DNA of 64,000 nt from Amphritea japonica ATCC BAA-1530 (GTDB lineage Bacteria; Pseudomonadota; Gammaproteobacteria; Pseudomonadales; Balneatricaceae). The position numbers were made by a program, and so were the translations under genes. Under the pieces are notes generated by a model that saw nothing but the letters and a program-made list of their open reading frames with translations, was not told the DNA's origin and ran no database searches. The stretch lies in assembly GCF_016592435.1 (NCBI RefSeq), contig NZ_AP014545.1, forward strand, positions 806,001-870,000. The letters are read 5' to 3'. Each line of letters opens with the position of its first letter. Within the stretch, counting starts at the first letter, position 1. Below, piece by piece: positions 34,051-59,813 of this stretch.

Positions 34051-34059
34051 AGCAGGTTG

Positions 34060-34929
34060 ATGCAGATTCATGAATATAGCACCGCTATTACCGATGCCGA
34101 GCGGAGTGAGATTCTGTTTAATGGTGATCTGATTGTGTTTAAACAGCTATCAGTGTTATCTGAATTAAATAGTCAGGTAGATGCCCTAGTAAATGAAGGC
34201 TTAAGTGCAAAGTATTTGGTCACCTCAGATCAGATATCAGGTCAGGTGACGGGCAGGGAGAGCGGCAATAAATACCTGCAGCGGATACAGCAAAGCTTTT
34301 CTGAGAATCCTCAATTCGCCAGATTCTTTTGTCTGGCGTTGCGCCAGTGCGGGGTAGAGCTCAACCTTAGCTACGCTGATAAACTGTTTTTGCGTTCAGT
34401 CCCTCCAAGAGAGAGTGAACAACCGGATAGTCCTATGTTCAGAGGGAGTATCAAACCTCACCGGGATACCTGGGGGAGCAACATTCAACAGCAGATAAAC
34501 TGGTGGAGTCCGGTATATCCGGTTACTGAACAGAGCGCGATAGTGTTCTATCCGGACTACTGGGATAGAGCCGTGGCGAATAGCACTGATCGCTGGTCGT
34601 TTGAGGCTTTTTGTACTGCAAGAGATCAAGCGGGGGAGGACGGTTCCATCGATTACCCATATGCGCCACAAGTATTGGAGCCGATAGAAACCACCCGAGA
34701 ACAGATTGTCGTTGTAGAACCCGGTGATCTGCTCTGCTTTTCAAGTGCGCACCTCCATGCCAGTGTACCTAATAGCTCAGGTCAGACACGTTACAGTTAC
34801 GAGCTGAGAACCTTTAATCTTGATGATATTGCGCGGACACACATGCCGATTAATGTTGATAATGCGGCAACTGAACCGCATTACAATTGGTTCCAACGAT
34901 TGAGTGATCAGTCACGGCTTGCTATTTAA
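34060..34929 (+). CDS. Phytanoyl-CoA dioxygenase-like 2OG-Fe(II) oxygenase
   Basis: A 289-residue protein. The iron-binding HxD is in IKPHRDTWGSN (His134, Asp136), and the distal His and 2OG arginine are in SAHLHASVPNSSGQTRYSYELR-type sequence (His233, Arg244). This is the jelly-roll of PhyH-like non-heme iron oxygenases. It starts at the ATG at 34060, 9 bases after the DUF934 stop, so it belongs to the same operon. A dioxygenase behind a sulfite reductase could release sulfite from an organosulfonate, as taurine dioxygenase does, but that is inference. Its substrate is unknown. Confidence 0.8.
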   Translation: MQIHEYSTAITDAERSEILFNGDLIVFKQLSVLSELNSQVDALVNEGLSAKYLVTSDQISGQVTGRESGNKYLQRIQQSFSENPQFARFFCLALRQCGVELNLSYADKLFLRSVPPRESEQPDSPMFRGSIKPHRDTWGSNIQQQINWWSPVYPVTEQSAIVFYPDYWDRAVANSTDRWSFEAFCTARDQAGEDGSIDYPYAPQVLEPIETTREQIVVVEPGDLLCFSSAHLHASVPNSSGQTRYSYELRTFNLDDIARTHMPINVDNAATEPHYNWFQRLSDQSRLAI

Positions 34930-34962: not shown

Positions 34963-35886
34963 TCACTCTGAATAGAACTGCGCATTCAACTCTTCTAACT
35001 GCTGGGTAACCAGCTCAGTAAAACTGCTGGCTAGTACGGATGCCGGGCGATGTGCTGGTGTCAGAACTGATACCGACAGAATAACTTCGGGTATAAAGGG
35101 TCTGAATACTAATCTTGCCCGGTCATCAAAACGTTGTAGATAGCCGCTGGCCGTCATTGGGTCACAGATGCAGTAGCAGAGGTTTTCTTCTACCAGCTTT
35201 AACGCGGGCTGGAATGTCAGTAGCTCAAAGCGCTGATTCAATGTTGCTCCCTGACTTCTAAATGCTTTCAGAGCGGACTGATAGTTCGGGTGTCCCTCCT
35301 GGAGTGTTGCCAGTGGCAGGTTGTCCAGATCTTTCGGAGTGATTACGGCTTTGTTGGCTAAGGGGTCATTGATGGGAAGGGCGCAAACACACTTAAGATC
35401 AAAGGTCAGCGCTGATAGCGCCCGGTTAGGTGGTGGTGTTTCTGCCAGGCCGATATCGTATTGCTGAGAAGCAACCCACTCCTCAATCACAGAAGAGTCC
35501 CGCATCATCATCGATACATTTACCCGGGGCTTATCCCTTACAAATTCTGCAATCAGGCGTGGCATCAAATAGTTAGAGGCTGCGGGCATACAGGCGATCT
35601 TCAGGCGGCCAAGCTCCAGTCCGGCAATCTCCTTCATGGTACGGGCTGTTTTATTCAGTCGTTCCAGTATCTGCTCTGATTCTTCCAGAAAGTAATGGGC
35701 TTCTGGCTTACGGATCAAACGACCTCGCTGCCGTTCGAATAACTCAACTCCCAGTTCATCTTCCAGGGTGGCGACCATATTACTGACCGCCGGTTGGGTT
35801 CGTTGCAGGGTACGTGCCGCCTCTGAAATTGAGCCAGTACGCATGACTTCACGAAAACATTGCAGCTGTCGAACGGTGATATTCAT
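34963..35886 (-). CDS. LysR-type regulator of the TRAP/dehydrogenase locus
   Basis: A 307-residue LysR regulator. The helix-turn-helix is LQCFREVMRTGSISEAARTL plus RTQPAVSNMVATLEDELG (residues 7-45). The effector-binding domain runs from about residue 90 to the C-terminus. The ATG at 35886 (MNITVRQLQCF) is chosen over a TTG 21 bases upstream. It converges with the dioxygenase gene and is divergent from dctQ across 231 bases holding a LysR-type operator. It probably controls the TRAP transporter and dehydrogenase operon in response to its substrate. Confidence 0.9.
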   Translation of the reverse strand: MNITVRQLQCFREVMRTGSISEAARTLQRTQPAVSNMVATLEDELGVELFERQRGRLIRKPEAHYFLEESEQILERLNKTARTMKEIAGLELGRLKIACMPAASNYLMPRLIAEFVRDKPRVNVSMMMRDSSVIEEWVASQQYDIGLAETPPPNRALSALTFDLKCVCALPINDPLANKAVITPKDLDNLPLATLQEGHPNYQSALKAFRSQGATLNQRFELLTFQPALKLVEENLCYCICDPMTASGYLQRFDDRARLVFRPFIPEVILSVSVLTPAHRPASVLASSFTELVTQQLEELNAQFYSE

Positions 35887-35954
35887 TTTGTTACTGTTAA
35901 CCCTCAATTTTGTCGGATTTGTAACTCATTGTTACTCATATGTTTTATGACTAA

Positions 35955-35973
35955 CCATAACTTAAGATTATGG
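35955..35973 (+). promoter_or_regulatory. LysR-type operator (T-N11-A dyad)
   Basis: The inverted repeat CCATAA-N7-TTATGG has a T at 35958 and an A at 35970, the T-N11-A core of LysR boxes. It lies about 70 bases upstream of the regulator gene and about 145 upstream of dctQ. Confidence 0.65.
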
Positions 35974-36117
35974 AGGTATCAATATTTTGAAATTGATTTT
36001 ATACCTGCGTTGAACAAATATTAAGGCTACCAGTGTGTAAAGGAATGAATCTCGTAAGAGATTATATGGTCCGGATGAGAGCCGCTGGAATAATAAGAAG
36101 TATCTGAGGAAACCCGA

Positions 36118-36591
36118 ATGAACAAGTTTGCCAGCTATCTGCTGACTGGACTGATATGTCTGGTAGCGGGTGGCCAGTTTGTCCAGGTAGTGACCCGCTA
36201 CGTTCTCGAAATCCCGGTAATGGGGTTAGAGGAAACGTTGCTCTACCCAACGATGTGGCTGTATATCCTCGGGGCGGTAAACGCCTCTCGTGAAAATACC
36301 CACATTCGTGCCAATGTGCTGGAGATCTTCCTGAAAACCAAGCGTCAGGTTGTGTCACTGGCCATTGTTGGTGAAGTACTGAGTCTGATTATCGGCTGCT
36401 GGCTGATGTACTGGGCCTGGGATTTTACTAAGTATTCCCTGCGGGTCTGGAAAGAGAGTCCGACCCTGTATATCCCCACTTTTTACGTAGATGTTGCTCT
36501 GCTCACCGGTATGGTTCTGATGATGATCTATACCGCGTGGCACCTGTGGAATCACATCCGCGACCTGACTACTGATAATAAGGAGCAATAA
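36118..36591 (+). CDS. TRAP transporter small membrane subunit (DctQ type)
   Basis: A 157-residue four-span protein typical of TRAP small subunits: first span LLTGLICLVAGGQFVQVV, then EIPVMGLEETLLYPTMWLYI, which is the family signature, and a C-terminal span. It pairs with the large subunit whose gene begins two bases downstream. Together they form a sodium-driven secondary importer fed by a periplasmic binding protein. A CTGAGGA box precedes the ATG. Confidence 0.9.
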   Translation: MNKFASYLLTGLICLVAGGQFVQVVTRYVLEIPVMGLEETLLYPTMWLYILGAVNASRENTHIRANVLEIFLKTKRQVVSLAIVGEVLSLIIGCWLMYWAWDFTKYSLRVWKESPTLYIPTFYVDVALLTGMVLMMIYTAWHLWNHIRDLTTDNKEQ

Positions 36592-36592
36592 G

Positions 36593-37891
36593 ATGGTTGA
36601 AATTGCACTGATTGCAGTGGCGGTTCTGGTCGTTTTGCTGACCCTGGGCCTGCCATTACCCTACTGTTTTGGCGGCGGCCTGATGGTGATGTATTTCCTC
36701 GGCGACGTGATAATGAAAGGCAATATGCTGTGGGGCTTCCAGCAGCTGGGTAATCCGGTACTGCTTGCGATCCCCTTGTTTGTACTGGCCGGCACCATTA
36801 TGAGTGTCAGCGGGATAGCCGCCAGTCTACTTAACTTCGTTAACATTTTTGTTGGTCATCTGCGTGGTGGTCTGGGTGTTGTTGCAACGATTAGTTGTGC
36901 GTTAATAGGTGCAATCTCCGGTTCCGGTCTGACCGGTGTGGCAGCGATCGGTCCTTTGTTGATTCCTGAAATGGAAAAACAGGGCTATCCCCGTGAATAC
37001 GCGACTGCTCTGATCGCTAACGCATCACTGCTAGGATTGTTGATTCCGCCAAGCGTAACCATGATTGTTTATGGTTGGGTGACGGATACTTCCATTCTGG
37101 CGTGTTTCCTGGCGACTTTAGGCCCTGGCTTGCTGATCATGCTGAACTTCTCGGTGGTCAACGTCTGGCTGGCGCGTAAGTTCCCACTTGTATTGGACGA
37201 GCGACCAAAAGGCAAAGAGTTTGTAGCTGAAGCGACTAGTCGTGGCTTTAAAGCGACCCCTGCACTGCTGATGCCGGTGATCATTCTGGGTGGTATCTAC
37301 GGCGGCATTATGACGCCGACTGAAGCAGCTGCGGTCGCGGTGATCTACGCATTGCCTGTTGGTTTCCTGATCTATAAAGGTCTGGATCTGAAAACCTTCC
37401 TGTTCGCAGGCAAGGAAGCGTCGACTGCGGTGGGTGCCATCATGCTGATGATTCTGTTCAGTATGATTCTGTCGCAGATGTTTGTGGTCGAGTCTGTGCC
37501 TCAGGCCTTGGTTGAAGCCATCTTCTCGATCACTGAAGATAAAGTGGTACTGCTAATTCTGATTAACGTGCTGCTGTTCCTGGTGGGCATGGTTGTTAAC
37601 GATGTTACCGCAATTATTCTGATCGCCCCTCTGCTTCTGCCGTTGATGGAAGCGATCGGTATCAGTCCAATTCAGTTCGCCGCGATCATGGGTGTGAATA
37701 CCGCTATGGGTGGAGTCACGCCGCCATACGCTTCAATCCTGTATCTCGGTGCCCGCATCGGTAAAGTTCAGGTCACTAAGGTGATTAAGCCTGCCATGCT
37801 ACTGATTATTACTGGCTACCTGCCGGTAGTGTTCCTGACATCGTTCTGGGATGACCTGTCGATGTACCTTCCGAACTACTTCGGTTACTGA
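36593..37891 (+). CDS. TRAP transporter large membrane subunit (DctM type)
   Basis: A 432-residue protein with about twelve spans. The conserved sequence ISCALIGAISGSGLTGVAAIGP and IANASLLGLLIPPSVTMIVYG, and the second repeat FLVGMVVNDVTAIILIAPLL with GVNTAMGGVTPPYAS, are the two pseudo-symmetric pore motifs of the family. Length is normal. It is followed by the binding-protein gene after 77 bases. Substrate is set by the binding protein and cannot be read from this subunit. Confidence 0.92.
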   Translation: MVEIALIAVAVLVVLLTLGLPLPYCFGGGLMVMYFLGDVIMKGNMLWGFQQLGNPVLLAIPLFVLAGTIMSVSGIAASLLNFVNIFVGHLRGGLGVVATISCALIGAISGSGLTGVAAIGPLLIPEMEKQGYPREYATALIANASLLGLLIPPSVTMIVYGWVTDTSILACFLATLGPGLLIMLNFSVVNVWLARKFPLVLDERPKGKEFVAEATSRGFKATPALLMPVIILGGIYGGIMTPTEAAAVAVIYALPVGFLIYKGLDLKTFLFAGKEASTAVGAIMLMILFSMILSQMFVVESVPQALVEAIFSITEDKVVLLILINVLLFLVGMVVNDVTAIILIAPLLLPLMEAIGISPIQFAAIMGVNTAMGGVTPPYASILYLGARIGKVQVTKVIKPAMLLIITGYLPVVFLTSFWDDLSMYLPNYFGY

Positions 37892-37968
37892 GACGAAGTC
37901 GGGTTCGATTACTTAAACGCATTAAGAAAAACCTATAGATAAAAAATCTAAAAAGAGAGGAATCTGTA

Positions 37969-38961
37969 ATGAAGAAAACGTTTCTAACAACTGCGGTATT
38001 GGCCAGCACTCTGGCTCTGACATCTATCGCTGAAGCGGCTGAATTGAAGATCAGTCATATCCGTCCACAGGGCGCAACTATCGATGTAGAACTGAAGGAA
38101 CTGTCTGCCGATATTGAAAAAGCCACTGGCGGTGATCTTTCTCTGAAGATTTTTGCGGCCAGCGCACTGGGTGATTACACCACAGTTCAGGAACGTATTT
38201 CCGTCGGTGCAATTGATATGGCGGTACAGCCTGCAGCCACTGCAGCATCCCGTAAGATGCAGATTTCAGCATTCCCGTATATCGCGGCAAACTGGGAGCA
38301 GGCGCAGTCTATCTATGGTCCGGGCGGAGCGATTAACCAGGCGATGAAAGAGTTGTATGCCAAGCAGGATATCGAAATGCTGGCAGCCTACCCGGTTTAC
38401 TTTGGCGGTGTCGCGCTGAACCGTGATGCAGTATCTCCGGGCAACCCTAGTGTTGATAAAGGTATCAAGGTACGTGTGCCGGGTATCAAGAGCTTCCAGC
38501 TGACTGCTGATGCACTGGGTTATATCAGTTCACCAATCCCGTTCTCTGAGGCATTCACTGCCGTACAGACCGGTGTTGTTGACGGTGTGATCGGTTCCGG
38601 TGCGGAAGGTTACTACGCCTCTTTCCGTGACGTAACTAAGACTTACATTCCGGTGAATACTCACTTTGAAGTCTGGTACATGATCATCAATAACGAGTCT
38701 ATGTCTGATCTGGATTCTGACGATCAGGTAGCGTTGCGTAAAGCAGCAGCTGACTTTGAGATACGTCGCTGGGCTAAAGCTGAATCTGACCAGGCGGCTA
38801 ACGAGAAGAAACTGGAAGCTTACGGTGCAACTATCGTTAAGCTGAGTGATGACCAGCTGGCAGCTGCGGCGAAGAAAGCCCGTGCTGAAGTATGGCCTCA
38901 GATTCTTGAAGATGTTGGCGCTGAATGGGGTCAGGGAATCCTGGATCAGATCGCAAACTAA
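37969..38961 (+). CDS. TRAP transporter periplasmic substrate-binding protein (DctP type)
   Basis: A 330-residue protein with signal peptide MKKTFLTTAVLASTLALT ending near AEA, then ELKISHIRPQGA. The family blocks are DLSLKIFAASALGDYTTVQE-type (about 55-72), and KVRVPGIKSFQLTADALG followed by PFSEAFTAVQTGVVDGVIG, which carry the residues that bind a carboxylate ligand. The gene has an AGAGAGG box. It is the last TRAP gene, with a strong hairpin (38983-39014) after its stop. Confidence 0.92.
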   Translation: MKKTFLTTAVLASTLALTSIAEAAELKISHIRPQGATIDVELKELSADIEKATGGDLSLKIFAASALGDYTTVQERISVGAIDMAVQPAATAASRKMQISAFPYIAANWEQAQSIYGPGGAINQAMKELYAKQDIEMLAAYPVYFGGVALNRDAVSPGNPSVDKGIKVRVPGIKSFQLTADALGYISSPIPFSEAFTAVQTGVVDGVIGSGAEGYYASFRDVTKTYIPVNTHFEVWYMIINNESMSDLDSDDQVALRKAAADFEIRRWAKAESDQAANEKKLEAYGATIVKLSDDQLAAAAKKARAEVWPQILEDVGAEWGQGILDQIAN

Positions 38962-38982
38962 TCGGCGTTATCTGCTTACCCC

Positions 38983-39014
38983 GGAGAGTTACAGGTTCAC
39001 GGCTGTAATTCTCC
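38983..39014 (+). terminator. Stem-loop after dctP (partial terminator or mRNA stabiliser)
   Basis: Twelve bases (GGAGAGTTACAG) pair with CTGTAATTCTCC apart from one G-T. The loop is GTTCACGG and the T run is poor. Typical of stems that protect highly expressed binding-protein mRNA. Confidence 0.65.
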
Positions 39015-39088
39015 TGCTTTTCTATCGAAAAGCCTTTGCTCCCGAGTGACTCTGACCTGAGGGTCTAAACACTCATTCGTGACTTTTC

Positions 39089-39247
39089 AGCCCGGTCCAG
39101 GCTTCTTTATGAAGGAGTGTGTCGGCCAGAACGAAAGCGAATCAACTCGATAAGAGTAGTTTTTGCGACATAGGTTTAGTTTCTGAATGGTTAAGCCTTT
39201 TTATAGGTTAAACCCTTTATAGCTGACTCCTGTGCCGGGCTTTTTTT
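39089..39247 (+). ncRNA. Candidate structured RNA upstream of the dehydrogenase genes
   Basis: A closing stem AGCCCGG (39089-39095) / CCGGGCT (39235-39241) is followed directly by a T7 run. Inside it, AGGAGT (39113-39118) pairs with ACTCCT (39226-39231), and TGTCG (39120-39124) with CGACA (39166-39170) around the hairpin ACTC / GAGT (39145-39157). GGTTTA (39173-39178) pairs with TAAACC (39209-39214), with alternative TTAA/AGG pairs inside. Multi-branched shape with competing helices just before a start codon looks like a riboswitch or attenuator. I match no named class. By-eye folding only. Confidence 0.42.
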
Positions 39248-39277
39248 ACCTCAAAAAAGATATCAACAGGTGAGGAT

Positions 39278-39619
39278 ATGTTCCGATCTGTTACAAAACA
39301 ACAAGACCCAAAGACTGAAGTACAGGTAACCATCAACGATTCCGTTGTTGTGGTCGCGCCGGGAACAACAGTCTGGGCAGCCATGGCGCTGGCAGGGGAA
39401 ACCGCTACCCGGGTCTCTCCGGTGAATCAGCAGGTGCGTTCCGCTTACTGTGCTATGGGCGTCTGCTTCGAATGTATGGTCGAGATTGATGGTATGCCCA
39501 ATCGGCAGGCCTGTCTGACCGAAGTCAGCGAAGGTATGCAAGTTAACCGTCAGGTGATTACCGAGGCGACTATCGCCGCTAACCCGCAGCTAGCTCACAC
39601 GGGGGCTGAAAATGACTGA
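39278..39619 (+). CDS. [2Fe-2S] small subunit of FAD dehydrogenase (HcnA/OoxA-like)
   Basis: A 113-residue ferredoxin-like subunit. The cluster ligands are in SAYCAMGVCFECMVEIDG with a last Cys in RQACLTEV (C-x4-C-x2-C ... C). Proteins of this size with this motif are the alpha subunits of HcnABC, opine oxidase and D-hydroxyproline dehydrogenase. It passes electrons from the FAD subunits to the chain. It overlaps the next gene by 8 bases and has an AGGTGAGG box. Confidence 0.82.
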   Translation: MFRSVTKQQDPKTEVQVTINDSVVVVAPGTTVWAAMALAGETATRVSPVNQQVRSAYCAMGVCFECMVEIDGMPNRQACLTEVSEGMQVNRQVITEATIAANPQLAHTGAEND

Positions 39620-41063
39620 ATTATTGGCTCCTGATGAGCCGGAAAACATTACGGATAGCTATGAAATCGCTATTATCGGCGCGGGTCCCGCAGGTATGTC
39701 AGCGGCTATTACCGCAAGCCAGGCTGGTGTTAGTGTCGTAGTGCTGGATGATAAGCCCCGTAGCGGTGGTCAGATCTACCGCAATGTCGATGCCAGTCCG
39801 TTGCCTGATGCTGAAGTACTGGGACCTGACTATACCAAGGGTGCCGAATTAACAGTCCAGTTTAGAGGTTGTAATGCCCGTCATATCAGTGGTGTTACCG
39901 TATGGCATGTAGGTGATAATGGCGAGATCCTTTTCTCTGATAATGGCACGACAAAAAGACTGACGGCACAGAAGATTATTGTGGCGACTGGTGCGATGGA
40001 ACGGCCTTTTCCCATTCCGGGCTGGCATCTCCCGGGTGTTATGTCCGCCGGTAGTGCGCAGGTCATGCTTAAGTCCGATGGGCTGGTGCGTGACGGGGCA
40101 ATATTTGCCGGTACCGGTCCGTTACTTTACCTCATTGTGGCGCAGTACCTGCGACTGGGGGTTAAGGTTAAAGCGTTGGTGGATACTACGCCGAAAGAGA
40201 ATTATCTGCACGTTATGACAGAGTTGACTGGGGCAGTGACCGCACCAGGAATGCTGATCAAAGGCGTTGGTTTACTGAATGAGATCCGCAAGTCGGGTAC
40301 AAATATCTATAGCTTTGCCAAAGACCTGAAGGTCACAGGAGATGAACAGACCGCAGGGCTGAGCTTCAACTGTGGCGGTAAAGAACACTCGCTGCCTGCC
40401 AGTTATGTTTTTCTTCATCAGGGTGTTATTCCCAACCTGAATATCACCCAGGCGCTTGGTTTAGAGCATGACTGGTGTCAACAGCAGTTGTGTTGGAAAC
40501 CAAAGATAAATCGCTGGGGCCAAAGTTCTAAATCGCACATCGCTGTCGCAGGCGATTCTGGCGGTATCATCGGTGCCGATTCAGCCGCGGCGATGGGTCG
40601 AGTCGTCACGCTTAATCAACTGGTGAATCTTGGGGTTACAAGTCGCTCATTGGCAGAAGCCGAAGCGGCTGATGATCTGCGATTCGTTGCCAGACAACAG
40701 CGTTTTAGACGCTTTATTGATCGTCTTTATCGTCCGCTTGATCAGCAGCGAATTCCAGAAGCCCCCAATACTGTAGTTTGTCGTTGCGAAGAACGTACGG
40801 TTGCTGACCTGAAAAAAGGTTTTGAATTAGGTGGTCGTGAACCTAATCAACTGAAGAGTCAGACCCGTTGCGGTATGGGGCCCTGTCAGGGGCGAATGTG
40901 TGGCCACACGGTTAGTGAACTATTGGCAAACTGGCGTAATGAGCCGGTTGCCGATGTTGGCTATTATCGTCTGCGATCACCTATGCGCTTAGTCACATTG
41001 CAGGAACTGAGTCAGTTTACTGATGTAACGCCTGAGGCAAAGAAGACTGAGGAGGCAAGCTGA
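39612..41063 (+). CDS. FAD/NAD-type subunit with BFD-like [2Fe-2S] domain (HcnB/OoxA-like)
   Basis: A 483-residue flavoprotein. The N-terminal FAD-binding motif is IIGAGPAGMSAAITASQAG (about residues 21-39), followed by LDDKPRSGGQIY, and a second nucleotide site lies around ATGAMERPFPIPGWHLPG. The C-terminal part (about 395-450) has VVCRCEERTVADL and CGMGPCQGRMCG, a BFD-like [2Fe-2S] domain. This architecture is that of the beta subunit in heterotrimeric amine or amino-acid dehydrogenases. It overlaps the next gene by one base (TGATG). Confidence 0.84.
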   Translation: MTELLAPDEPENITDSYEIAIIGAGPAGMSAAITASQAGVSVVVLDDKPRSGGQIYRNVDASPLPDAEVLGPDYTKGAELTVQFRGCNARHISGVTVWHVGDNGEILFSDNGTTKRLTAQKIIVATGAMERPFPIPGWHLPGVMSAGSAQVMLKSDGLVRDGAIFAGTGPLLYLIVAQYLRLGVKVKALVDTTPKENYLHVMTELTGAVTAPGMLIKGVGLLNEIRKSGTNIYSFAKDLKVTGDEQTAGLSFNCGGKEHSLPASYVFLHQGVIPNLNITQALGLEHDWCQQQLCWKPKINRWGQSSKSHIAVAGDSGGIIGADSAAAMGRVVTLNQLVNLGVTSRSLAEAEAADDLRFVARQQRFRRFIDRLYRPLDQQRIPEAPNTVVCRCEERTVADLKKGFELGGREPNQLKSQTRCGMGPCQGRMCGHTVSELLANWRNEPVADVGYYRLRSPMRLVTLQELSQFTDVTPEAKKTEEAS

Positions 41064-42205
41064 TGACTATTAATACAACCTCCCAAAAGTTAAGTTCAGA
41101 TGTTTTGGTGATCGGCGGCGGTATTCAGGGTGCTTCAACCGCCTATCATTTAGCGCAGCGCGGTGTGTCTGTAATTGTTGTAGAGAAAGATACAGTATCC
41201 CGCCATGCCTCAGGTGTGAACGCCGGCGGTGTTCGGCTGCTGGGTCGGAATATTGCGGAAGTTGAGTTAAGTAAAGCAGCAATGCAACGCTGGCAGCAGC
41301 TTGATGATGAGCTGGATGCGGATACCGGCTTTCGACGTCGAAGTCTGATCAATATAGCGGCAGATGAAAAAGACCTGGAAAGCTTGCGCGCTCGTGAACA
41401 ACAGATGCATAGCCTGGATTATTTTCATGAAGTAATGCTGAATCAGCAGGAGTTGCGTGAACGCTTGCCCCACGTGGCGGCCCATTGTGTTGGTGGCGTG
41501 GTATCTGAACAGGATGGCTATGCGATTCCGTTTCATTCAACTCAGGCTTTTCGTATCGCTGCGGAGCGTTTAGGTGCTTGCTTCTGCGAAGGTGAGCAGG
41601 TTGAACAGATCCGCAAGGTTGGTGACAGCTGGCTGGTGGACACGAAAACTCAGCAATATCAGGCCGAACATCTGGTCAATTGTGCCGGAGCCTGGGGTGA
41701 TATTATTTCGGTGATGATCGGTGATAACGTGCCTATGTCATATAGCGCGCCGATGCTGATGATCACTGCCCGGATGCCGCATTTTGCCGGTCCGGTGGTT
41801 GGTGCTGTTAGTCGCCCTTTGTCGTTCAAACAGTTTGAGAACGGTACGGTATTGATTGGTGGAGGAGCCAAAGGCTTTGCGGATCGGGCTAACAATATCA
41901 CCCGACTGGATTACAGTTTATTGGCTACTGGTGCGCAAAATGCCATTGAGTTTTTCCCGATTATGAAAACCGCTTGTATTAACCGTATGTGGTCCGGTCT
42001 GGAAGCCTACATGCCAGACAATCTACCTGTTCTGGGTAAGAGTATGCGTACTGATAAGGCTTATCATGCCTTTGCATTTTCTGCCCATGGTTTCCAGTTG
42101 GGTCCTGTGATTGGTGAAGTGATGGCTGACCTGATTACCAAAGGCGAAACCCGTTTTGATCTGGAACCGTTGCGGGTTAACAGGTATGAACGGAAAACCC
42201 TGTAA
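41063..42205 (+). CDS. FAD-dependent amino-acid dehydrogenase catalytic subunit (HcnC/DadA-like)
   Basis: A 380-residue DAO-superfamily flavoprotein. The N-terminal FAD motif is VLVIGGGIQGASTAYHLAQRG, followed by RHASGVNAGGVRLLGR, and the C-terminal block GLEAYMPDNLPVLGK with FSAHGFQLGPVIGEVMADLI is typical of D-amino-acid and sarcosine oxidases. It should oxidise an amine or amino acid to an imine. It is the third subunit of the set and is followed by a RidA gene, which fits enamine/imine product. Exact substrate unknown. Confidence 0.85.
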   Translation: MTINTTSQKLSSDVLVIGGGIQGASTAYHLAQRGVSVIVVEKDTVSRHASGVNAGGVRLLGRNIAEVELSKAAMQRWQQLDDELDADTGFRRRSLINIAADEKDLESLRAREQQMHSLDYFHEVMLNQQELRERLPHVAAHCVGGVVSEQDGYAIPFHSTQAFRIAAERLGACFCEGEQVEQIRKVGDSWLVDTKTQQYQAEHLVNCAGAWGDIISVMIGDNVPMSYSAPMLMITARMPHFAGPVVGAVSRPLSFKQFENGTVLIGGGAKGFADRANNITRLDYSLLATGAQNAIEFFPIMKTACINRMWSGLEAYMPDNLPVLGKSMRTDKAYHAFAFSAHGFQLGPVIGEVMADLITKGETRFDLEPLRVNRYERKTL

Positions 42206-42242
42206 GTTACTTTTGTCTATTAAATAATGAACGAGAAGCAAT

Positions 42243-42590
42243 ATGAATATTGAACGAATCGGTTCAACTGATCGCATGAGCAAAATTGTAAAACACAACG
42301 ACACTATCTATCTGTGTGGCCAGACAGCCAGTGCAGACGAGTGGGATACCGCAGAGCAGACTCGGCGATGTCTGGAGCAGGTTGAAGGTCTGTTGCTAGA
42401 AGCTGGATCTTCAACTGATAAGTTACTCTCTGTGACTATCTATGTCCGGGATATGAAGGACTTCGCGGCTATGAATGAAGTTTGGGATAACTGGATTGCT
42501 GATAAGCCAAAACCGGCCCGTGCCTGTGTTGAAGCTCACATGGCTCGTCCGAATGTCCTGGTAGAGCTGACGGTGATCGCTGCACAATAG
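42243..42590 (+). CDS. RidA/YjgF-family imine deaminase
   Basis: A 115-residue RidA protein. The signature ARACVEAHMARPNVLVEL near the C-terminus supplies the catalytic arginine region. RidA hydrolyses reactive enamine and imine intermediates to keto acids, protecting PLP enzymes. Its place directly behind an imine-generating dehydrogenase fits that job here. It starts 37 bases after the dehydrogenase gene and is the last gene of the operon. Confidence 0.88.
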   Translation: MNIERIGSTDRMSKIVKHNDTIYLCGQTASADEWDTAEQTRRCLEQVEGLLLEAGSSTDKLLSVTIYVRDMKDFAAMNEVWDNWIADKPKPARACVEAHMARPNVLVELTVIAAQ

Positions 42591-58700: not shown

Positions 58701-59609
58701 GCGCTTCGCGATAACTCTGAATGTGCTCAGCAGGAGTTTGATACTCTGTTGGAGAAAGAAGATCCGGGCCTGAATGTTGAATTGAGCTTCGATCAGAATG
58801 ATAACCTTGCCGCGGCATTGATTGAATCAGGTGTACGTCCTGAAGTAGCAATTATTCGTGAACAGGGAGTAAACGGTCAGATCGAAATGGGAGCGGCTTT
58901 TGATCGCGCTGGTTTTGCTGCGGTTGATGTTCACATGAGTGATATTCTGGAAGGCCGGGTTGAGCTGGATCGTTTCAAAGGGTTAGTTGCCTGTGGCGGT
59001 TTCTCATACGGTGATGTGCTGGGTGCGGGAGAAGGTTGGGCTAAATCAATTCTGTTTAACGCCAGAGCCCGTAATCAGTTTGAGGCTTTCTTTAAGCGTG
59101 AAGATACCTTTGCACTGGGCATCTGTAACGGCTGTCAGATGCTATCTAATTTGCATGAGTTGATTCCTGGTGCTGAGCATTGGCCGCACTTTGTGCGTAA
59201 CATGTCTGAGCAGTTTGAAGCGCGTGTTGCGATGGTTGAAGTTCAGGAAAGTAACTCTGTATTCCTTCAGGGCATGGCCGGTTCTCGTATGCCAATCGCT
59301 GTCGCGCATGGTGAGGGTCGAGCTGAGTTTTCTACTCCGTCTCAGCTAAGTCATTTGGAAGAGTCCGGGGCTGTTGCTCTACGCTATGTAGATAACTATG
59401 GCAAAGTTACAGAAACCTATCCAGCTAACCCGAATGGCTCACCAGATGGGATTACGGGTATCGCATCAGCCGATGGTCGGGTAACGCTGATGATGCCTCA
59501 TCCTGAGCGGGTTTTCCGTGCGGTAACCAATAGTTGGGCGCCTGATCACTGGGATGAGGATGGTGCCTGGATGCGGATGTTCCGTAATGCCCGTGTTTGG
59601 GTGGGATAA
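55707..59609 (+). CDS. purL: Phosphoribosylformylglycinamidine synthase
   Basis: A 1300-residue large-type FGAM synthase, fourth step of purine synthesis. The N-terminal domain and linker (1-~200) are followed by two AIRS-like halves (about 210-980) with [18 protein letters not shown] and [20 protein letters not shown] for substrate and ATP binding. The C-terminal glutaminase (about 1040-1300) has the nucleophile Cys in [14 protein letters not shown] and the His-Glu pair in [12 protein letters not shown]. Length normal for proteobacterial PurL. It ends at a strong terminator. Confidence 0.97.
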
Positions 59610-59622
59610 TAATCCAAGCAAT

Positions 59623-59648
59623 AAAAAAGCGCCTTCGGGCGCTTTTTT
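59623..59648 (+). terminator. purL terminator
   Basis: AAAAGCGCC / GGCGCTTTT with a TTCG tetraloop, followed by T7. Confidence 0.94.
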
Positions 59649-59813
59649 TGCTTTTTAAGAACCGTTACTTCGTTGTCACAATAAAGTGTGGCTTGCTCTT
59701 TGCTCGATAAAAGCTTTCTTTATTTAGAGTTAGATTTGGAAGAGAGTAAGTCGCTTTGTAAGATAGCTGTTGGGTTGGTAGGACTGGTAATTCCGAGAGA
59801 AATACATCATTTT

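Follow-up and report, generated by a model that had tools for sequence, protein, structure and literature searches.

In clostridial ABC-importer operons, stem-loops behind binding-protein genes are reported to act as partial internal terminators that leave the binding protein in excess (PMC9045158). These clostridial terminators are single stem-loops, mostly with poor U-tracts, and the authors set such single stem-loops against the complex structures of conditional attenuators. The RNA analysed here lies at positions 39089-39247 of a 64-kb stretch of DNA (the window) that comes from the marine genus Amphritea. It resembles the ABC terminators of Ruminiclostridium cellulolyticum (PMC9045158) in having a stem-loop with a U-tract behind a binding-protein gene, although here we infer the read-through, and structure behind the binding-protein gene is common here as well (19/23 relatives). 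It differs from the R. cellulolyticum case in that the transporter is of the TRAP type and enzymes, not permeases, lie downstream. In form, too, it is no single stem-loop but a branched RNA of ~152 nt whose perfect U7 adjoins the next gene.

Like transcription-attenuating riboswitches, the element is a multi-helix RNA with alternative pairings and a terminator-like stem before metabolic genes, but it is without an aptamer core conserved across its carriers, occurs in one context and has no Rfam match. Small RNAs derived from 3' untranslated regions have a structured 3' region with an intrinsic terminator at its end; here, in contrast, the next gene begins 30 nt on. No publication on this element was found in the literature searched. 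We lean towards reading it as an internal, read-through intrinsic terminator within a single TRAP-dehydrogenase operon, where it would lower expression of the enzymes relative to that of the binding protein.

The region between dctP and the dehydrogenase genes

A first-pass annotation had placed the element between a TRAP binding-protein gene and a metabolic operon, and the neighbourhood bears this out, with dctP upstream and dehydrogenase genes downstream (Table 1). The dctQ-dctM-dctP genes (36118-38961) lie opposite a LysR gene on the minus strand (34963-35907), and 316 nt separate dctP from the 2Fe-2S gene. Beside the LysR gene, 34057-34929 encodes a 290-aa protein with no Pfam match and a weak 2OG-Fe(II) oxygenase match. 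Against solved structures, the oxidase matched sarcosine and glycine oxidases, dimethylglycine dehydrogenase and D-arginine dehydrogenase, while the binding protein gave matches no better than E 7e-20; because the matches of both proteins are too distant, we rejected naming a substrate from them. Loci L032 (G000:C1:2608128-2609087) and L047 represent a second TRAP binding protein in the same genome, 58% identical; in this paralogous operon the DAO gene stands directly behind dctP and is followed by the 2Fe-2S gene, a different subunit order, and only a short hairpin lies behind its dctP.

Table 1. Genes and RNA features of the dctP-dehydrogenase region, in window positions
Feature	Position	Strand	Basis or remark
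dctQ	36118-36591	+	TRAP gene, 5' of dctM
dctM	36593-37891	+	TRAP gene, 5' of dctP
dctP, TRAP solute-binding protein gene	37969-38961	+	Pfam/NCBIfam matches
HP1, 12-bp hairpin directly behind dctP, 8-nt loop GUUCACGG (38995-39002)	38983-39014	+	z -6.78; covariation
HP2, small hairpin CUUUUC/GAAAAG	39017-39032	+	1/6 pairs compensatory vs A. balenae
HP3, hairpin GAGUG/CACUC	39044-39074	+	2/5 pairs compensatory vs A. balenae
UCGUGA, possible pseudoknot partner of HP1-loop UCACGG (38997-39002)	39077-39082	+	
P1 5' strand, closing terminator stem	39089-39096	+	sequence, fold
P1' 5' strand CAGG, alternative P1 extension with CCUG 39229-39232	39098-39101	+	double changes at 2/4 pairs, 6 sequences
P2 hairpin	39102-39117	+	vs A. 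balenae: 2 double changes and 1 broken pair, of 6
Strand a, UGUGUC	39118-39123	+	pairs with strand b
13-nt asymmetric internal loop GGCCAGAACGAAA	39124-39136	+	A. balenae identical at 11/13, which does not exceed synonymous sites
P3b hairpin	39137-39166	+	fold; alignment
Strand b, GACAUAGG	39167-39174	+	P3: with strand a; P4: its CAUAGG with CCUGUG 39229-39234
P4, long hairpin	39169-39234	+	~50 nt of it missing in A. balenae
P1 3' strand GCCGGGC and U7, intrinsic-terminator-like end	39234-39247	+	counterpart in 7/23 relatives including the window
2Fe-2S (Fer2_4) subunit gene	39278-39619	+	start codon 30 nt past U7
FAD/NAD oxidoreductase, DAO-family oxidase and Rid-family genes (remaining dehydrogenase operon)	39612-42590	+	

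For the 159-nt RNA at 39089-39247, the folding energy is -56.2 kcal/mol where shuffles average -39.09 (z -4.74), and none of 200 dinucleotide shuffles was as stable. Its closing stem, P1, joins GCCCGGU (39090-39096) to GCCGGGC (39234-39240) in 7 bp with an innermost U-G pair; A39089 is able to pair with U39241 as well, and U7 (39241-39247) lies immediately 3' of the stem. Both the 7-bp stem abutting U7 and the nested helices with an alternative pairing that had been claimed inside it (P2, P3b, P4 and the a:b pairing) were thus found. The coordinates given for the element were also right, but the conserved structured RNA begins ~105 nt earlier, at 38983. Pairing of UGUGUC (39118-39123) with GACAUA (39167-39172) excludes the P4 base CAUAGG/CCUGUG, and the best fold takes the P4 form in the window and the P3 form in A. 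balenae. These mutually exclusive a:b and b:c pairings are present as sequences of a kind, short complementary trios, that can arise by chance, and covariation does not back both forms.

The GC-rich stem and U-tract of an intrinsic terminator are present (GCCCGGU/GCCGGGC, U7). A compact short-loop hairpin, typical of intrinsic terminators and not strictly defining, is absent, since the span is 151-152 nt in the window and 63-105 nt in the other six carriers, and a consensus terminator scan (loops 3-8) does not list 39089-39247. Runs of T6 or longer number 88 over both strands of the window (57 and 31), a count that takes in runs within the first 180 nt of a strand, which had no stem test; three of the 88, including 39241-39247, abut a GC-rich 6-bp stem of 50-170-nt span, one of the three having two possible 5' partners. 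At 59538-59649, a further U7 run goes with a GC-rich stem that spans ~80-105 nt and in which GGGCGC has either GCGCCU or GUGCCU as its partner, and at 16925-16791, on the minus strand, a U6 run goes with a long-span GCCGCC/GGCGGC stem.

The strongest covariation in the region falls in HP1, outside the coordinates originally noted: in three Amphritea, double changes occur at 6 of 11 pairs and UCACGG of the loop is unchanged. This UCACGG could pair with 39077-39082. Its partner starts 11-12 nt 5' of the closing stem in all three Amphritea, with a second one in G012, and in shuffled spacers a partner site appeared in all three Amphritea in 1.5% of cases and in A. balenae and G012 at the same register in 1.1%. 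Since no compensatory change backs the pseudoknot, we regard it as only suggestive. The first 90 nt past dctP fold with a z of -2 or lower in 19 of the 23 relatives, the exceptions being A. balenae and Neptunomonas G071 and G076, all three carriers of the element, and G057; such unusual stability in most relatives fits a partial-terminator role for HP1.

Distribution among relatives and the spacing to the next gene

Of the 116 genomes of the family set, 23, the window's included, encode an ortholog of the downstream 2Fe-2S protein with E no higher than 1e-27, and the end of a binding-protein gene was found upstream of the ortholog in all 23. Carriers of the element were defined by a U6 or longer run at most 60 nt from the start codon together with a stem no shorter than 5 bp that includes 4 G-C pairs. 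The closing stem and U7 occur in seven of the 23 genomes, namely the window's, A. balenae, G008, G012, N. japonica (G071), G076 and G073 (four Amphritea and three Neptunomonas), and closing stem and U-run are absent by the same test in 16, with the U6 runs of G058 and G035, at 64 nt and 82 nt respectively, outside the 60-nt limit. Among the 23 family genomes examined, the U7 element is confined to Amphritea and Neptunomonas. In all seven carriers the stem abuts or nearly abuts U7, and the U-tract, which starts 31-42 nt upstream of the start codon, ends at 24-35 nt from it. The closed span, 152 nt in the window, is 105 nt in A. balenae (fold z -1.83), 75 nt in G012 (z -3.11), 63 nt in G008 (z -5.97), 77 nt in both N. 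japonica (z -2.02) and G076 (z -5.14), and 67 nt in G073 (z -2.72). For A. balenae, the automatic stem finder preferred another 5' partner (UCUGGCA, span 129) over P1, an alternative not seen in the window. G067, whose binding protein is 79% identical, was rejected as a carrier because only a simple hairpin lies at the site.

When the 116 family genomes were searched with the DNA sequence, the sole clear match was A. balenae (E 4e-14, 80% over 97 nt). Weak blastn matches in other genomes ran from E 1e-4 to 0.1; of those examined, G012 and G004, which has the A. balenae (L055) sequence at this site, fall within this operon, and G039 was rejected as a homologue of the element, its match being a CCGGGCC-U7 tail 5' of another gene. 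A repeated or mobile element was likewise rejected, there being one match in the window's own genome at E 0.001 and one match per genome at E 1 for the models R1 and R2 described below, in counts that used stricter filters prone to lose weak matches.

In the genome collection, 50 of 51 loci were scanned for U5 or longer runs within 100 nt of the gene, L076 being incomplete at its start and left out. With Amphritea, Neptunomonas and the single Neptuniibacter MAG set aside, 45 loci remained, of which 4 had a U5 run and none a longer one. Two of the four, the Rhodobacteraceae loci L068 and L069 (one a Ruegeria, the other a Leisingera), carry a compact single hairpin with U5 21-30 nt before the gene, which is a simple form of the same arrangement. 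In L060, L062, L068 and L069, all Rhodobacteraceae, the dctP-2Fe-2S gap is taken up by one compact GC-rich hairpin, with U5 after it in the last two. Other Amphritea loci (L037, L038, L039 and L040) have a CCGGCC-type hairpin past dctP in place of the element, and also share a different conserved spacer, GUUUUCUGUC.GCAGUUCUAU, 5' of the 2Fe-2S gene.

The position of U7 bears on whether the TRAP unit simply ends at the element, with the dehydrogenase genes served by their own promoter overlapping it. Such a boundary would suit the perfect U7 and strong stem, and in four other Amphritea a hairpin or terminator stands farther from the gene, with a long spacer in which a promoter could lie. However, the distance from U7 to the start codon, 30 nt in the window and similarly short in the other six carriers, leaves almost no space for a separate promoter behind the terminator, so that the dehydrogenase mRNA must pass through the element unless a promoter overlaps it; in N. 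japonica and a close relative, the first U-run lies only 13 nt from P1. A scan for sigma-70-like promoters found none in 37880-39300 (1.5 expected), though both of its sites in 35850-36250 lie on the minus strand, and the plus strand 5' of the TRAP genes likewise gave none. Since it also misses the TRAP-gene start, its silence before the dehydrogenase genes carries little weight. Given the spacing, we consider a terminator at a transcription-unit boundary unlikely.

Conservation of the interior and ligand sensing

Helix strands were matched by eye and then counted because MAFFT misplaced parts of the G012 and Neptunomonas sequences; such counts favour the structure as drawn, and the related sequences are not independent. 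In a two-sequence automatic alignment, the consensus fold misaligned the 3' half, and only the P2 pairs were used, which agreed with the by-eye counts. G073 was left out of the covariation counts, and those for P1 and P1' cover six sequences. P1 is nearly invariant among them, with one-sided changes at 3 of 6 pairs and the outermost pair lost in three sequences, and thus tells little by covariation. P1' reads CAGG/CCUG in the window, CAGC/GCUG in G012 and CAUG/UAUG or UGUG elsewhere, and P3 shows one-sided change only, with 2 of 6 pairs lost in Neptunomonas. The covariation check that had been proposed across relatives therefore came out in part, with compensatory changes in P1' and P2 but a closing stem that hardly varies.

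The window and A. balenae agree at 118/165 4-fold sites in dctP and at 27/52 in the first 300 nt of the 2Fe-2S gene (pooled, 0.67). Measured against these sites, 87 of 119 model columns (P4 tip removed) are identical (p 0.085), as are 11 of 13 positions of the internal loop (p 0.14), and conserved blocks chosen after inspection reach 45/49 (p 4e-5). Across carriers, stem and U-run persist, and the interior differs for the most part in sequence and helices in five of the six other carriers. Model R1, built from the window and A. balenae, recovered in the 116 genomes its own sequences, G012 (E 0.017), whose alignment rests on P1/P1' only, and one chance-level match (E 0.91). Model R2, built from two Neptunomonas sequences and G008, recovered its own three sequences and one chance-level match (E 0.91) in the same genomes and, on 25 kb, G073 weakly (E 0.012); it does not recover the window or A. 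balenae. By eye, GUCGG...CGACA is common to the elements of the lineages behind R1 and R2, but since neither model recovers the other lineage, kinship between these elements is not statistically supported.

The first-pass annotation had suggested ligand sensing by an RNA of no known riboswitch class. The second part holds, as none of 4227 Rfam families matched at gathering score in the window and none at E 5 for 38962-39280. In a riboswitch attenuator, substrate or product of the dehydrogenase would bind the branched core and shift strand b between a (P3) and c (P4/P1'), and the altered termination at P1-U7 would mean that the enzymes are made only after substrate entry. The mutually exclusive pairings, of which the window and A. 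balenae use opposite ones in their best folds, could provide such a switch, and visual inspection shows a similar trio (GUCGG...CGACA...GUGUCG or AUGUCG) in two Neptunomonas, one of them N. japonica, but prefix folds gave no conserved antiterminator strand for P1. Likewise, a complex fold suits conditional attenuation and the blocks picked after looking exceed the 4-fold sites, yet neither the full set of model columns nor the loop does, R1 adds G012 solely through P1/P1', R2 misses the other lineage, and the element has one copy in one gene context in 116 genomes. Conserved aptamer nucleotides, which would mark a riboswitch, were not found, the interior being unlike the window's in five of the six other carriers and the A. 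balenae loop not exceeding synonymous level. The proposal of ligand sensing is thus not supported, and we judge a riboswitch attenuator improbable. Quite unlikely, in our estimate, is the more specific reading of the whole 265-nt intergenic RNA (HP1, the HP1-loop pseudoknot and the P1 terminator) as a lineage-restricted, metabolite-controlled attenuator of a new riboswitch class, confined to Amphritea with a possible Neptunomonas relative, that would hold the dehydrogenase genes back until the transporter imports substrate.

Remaining alternatives and the proposed read-through terminator

The TRAP mRNA could instead end in the intergenic RNA, and this 3' part could be set free as a small, stable RNA with a function elsewhere. 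A structured 3' untranslated region with a U7 tail, in which UCACGG of the HP1 loop and other segments are conserved, would be in keeping with this, but the interior diverges fast, and we think such a product highly doubtful. Leader-peptide attenuation, in which a short open frame over the element would couple translation to termination, deserves almost no credence: a GTG frame at 39079 (24 codons) has same-place counterparts in A. balenae (18 codons) and G012 (22 codons), with 11/18 codons common to the window and A. balenae, but all 7 codons changed between these two are nonsynonymous, only 2/22 are common with G012, the frames end at different places, that of Neptunomonas not before the gene, and no Shine-Dalgarno-like stretch was seen by eye in the 20 nt 5' of the starts. 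The likeness of the frames seems to reflect conserved blocks of RNA and not the conservation of a peptide.

Under the internal read-through terminator that we favour, polymerase coming from the TRAP genes would make HP1 first, just past dctP, where the hairpin could protect the upstream mRNA and possibly cause a pause or a partial transcription stop. P1 and U7 would be made next, and a fraction of polymerases would stop there, while the remainder would continue into the 2Fe-2S/FAD/DAO/Rid genes, leaving binding protein in excess over enzyme. The branched interior would bring the distant P1 strands together and may tune efficiency. Termination, co-transcription, partial read-through and control of stoichiometry are all steps that we infer.

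An attenuating role in transcription, as originally put forward, is plausible given the terminator-like end before the dehydrogenase genes, and with dehydrogenase mRNA passing through it, the element would be an attenuator in the wide sense. Since the interior changes fast between species, a leaky gene-dosage stop is likelier than a new metabolite sensor. With the P1 strands ~150 nt apart, the stem may form too slowly for efficient termination. In its branching, its length of ~152 nt and its perfect U7, the structure comes nearer to conditional attenuators, and this complexity would leave room for conditional control, with an interior that does not appear aptamer-like across carriers. The structure is real, of an ordinary class and of narrow distribution.

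If the conditional reading were true, a single operon would carry a sensor between its genes for uptake and those for catabolism. If the element is instead the read-through terminator that we favour, control by operon-internal terminators would reach beyond ABC importers and take in a TRAP transporter together with the catabolic enzymes joined to it, and such a terminator would be present, absent or internally rebuilt among close relatives while its stem and U-tract persist.
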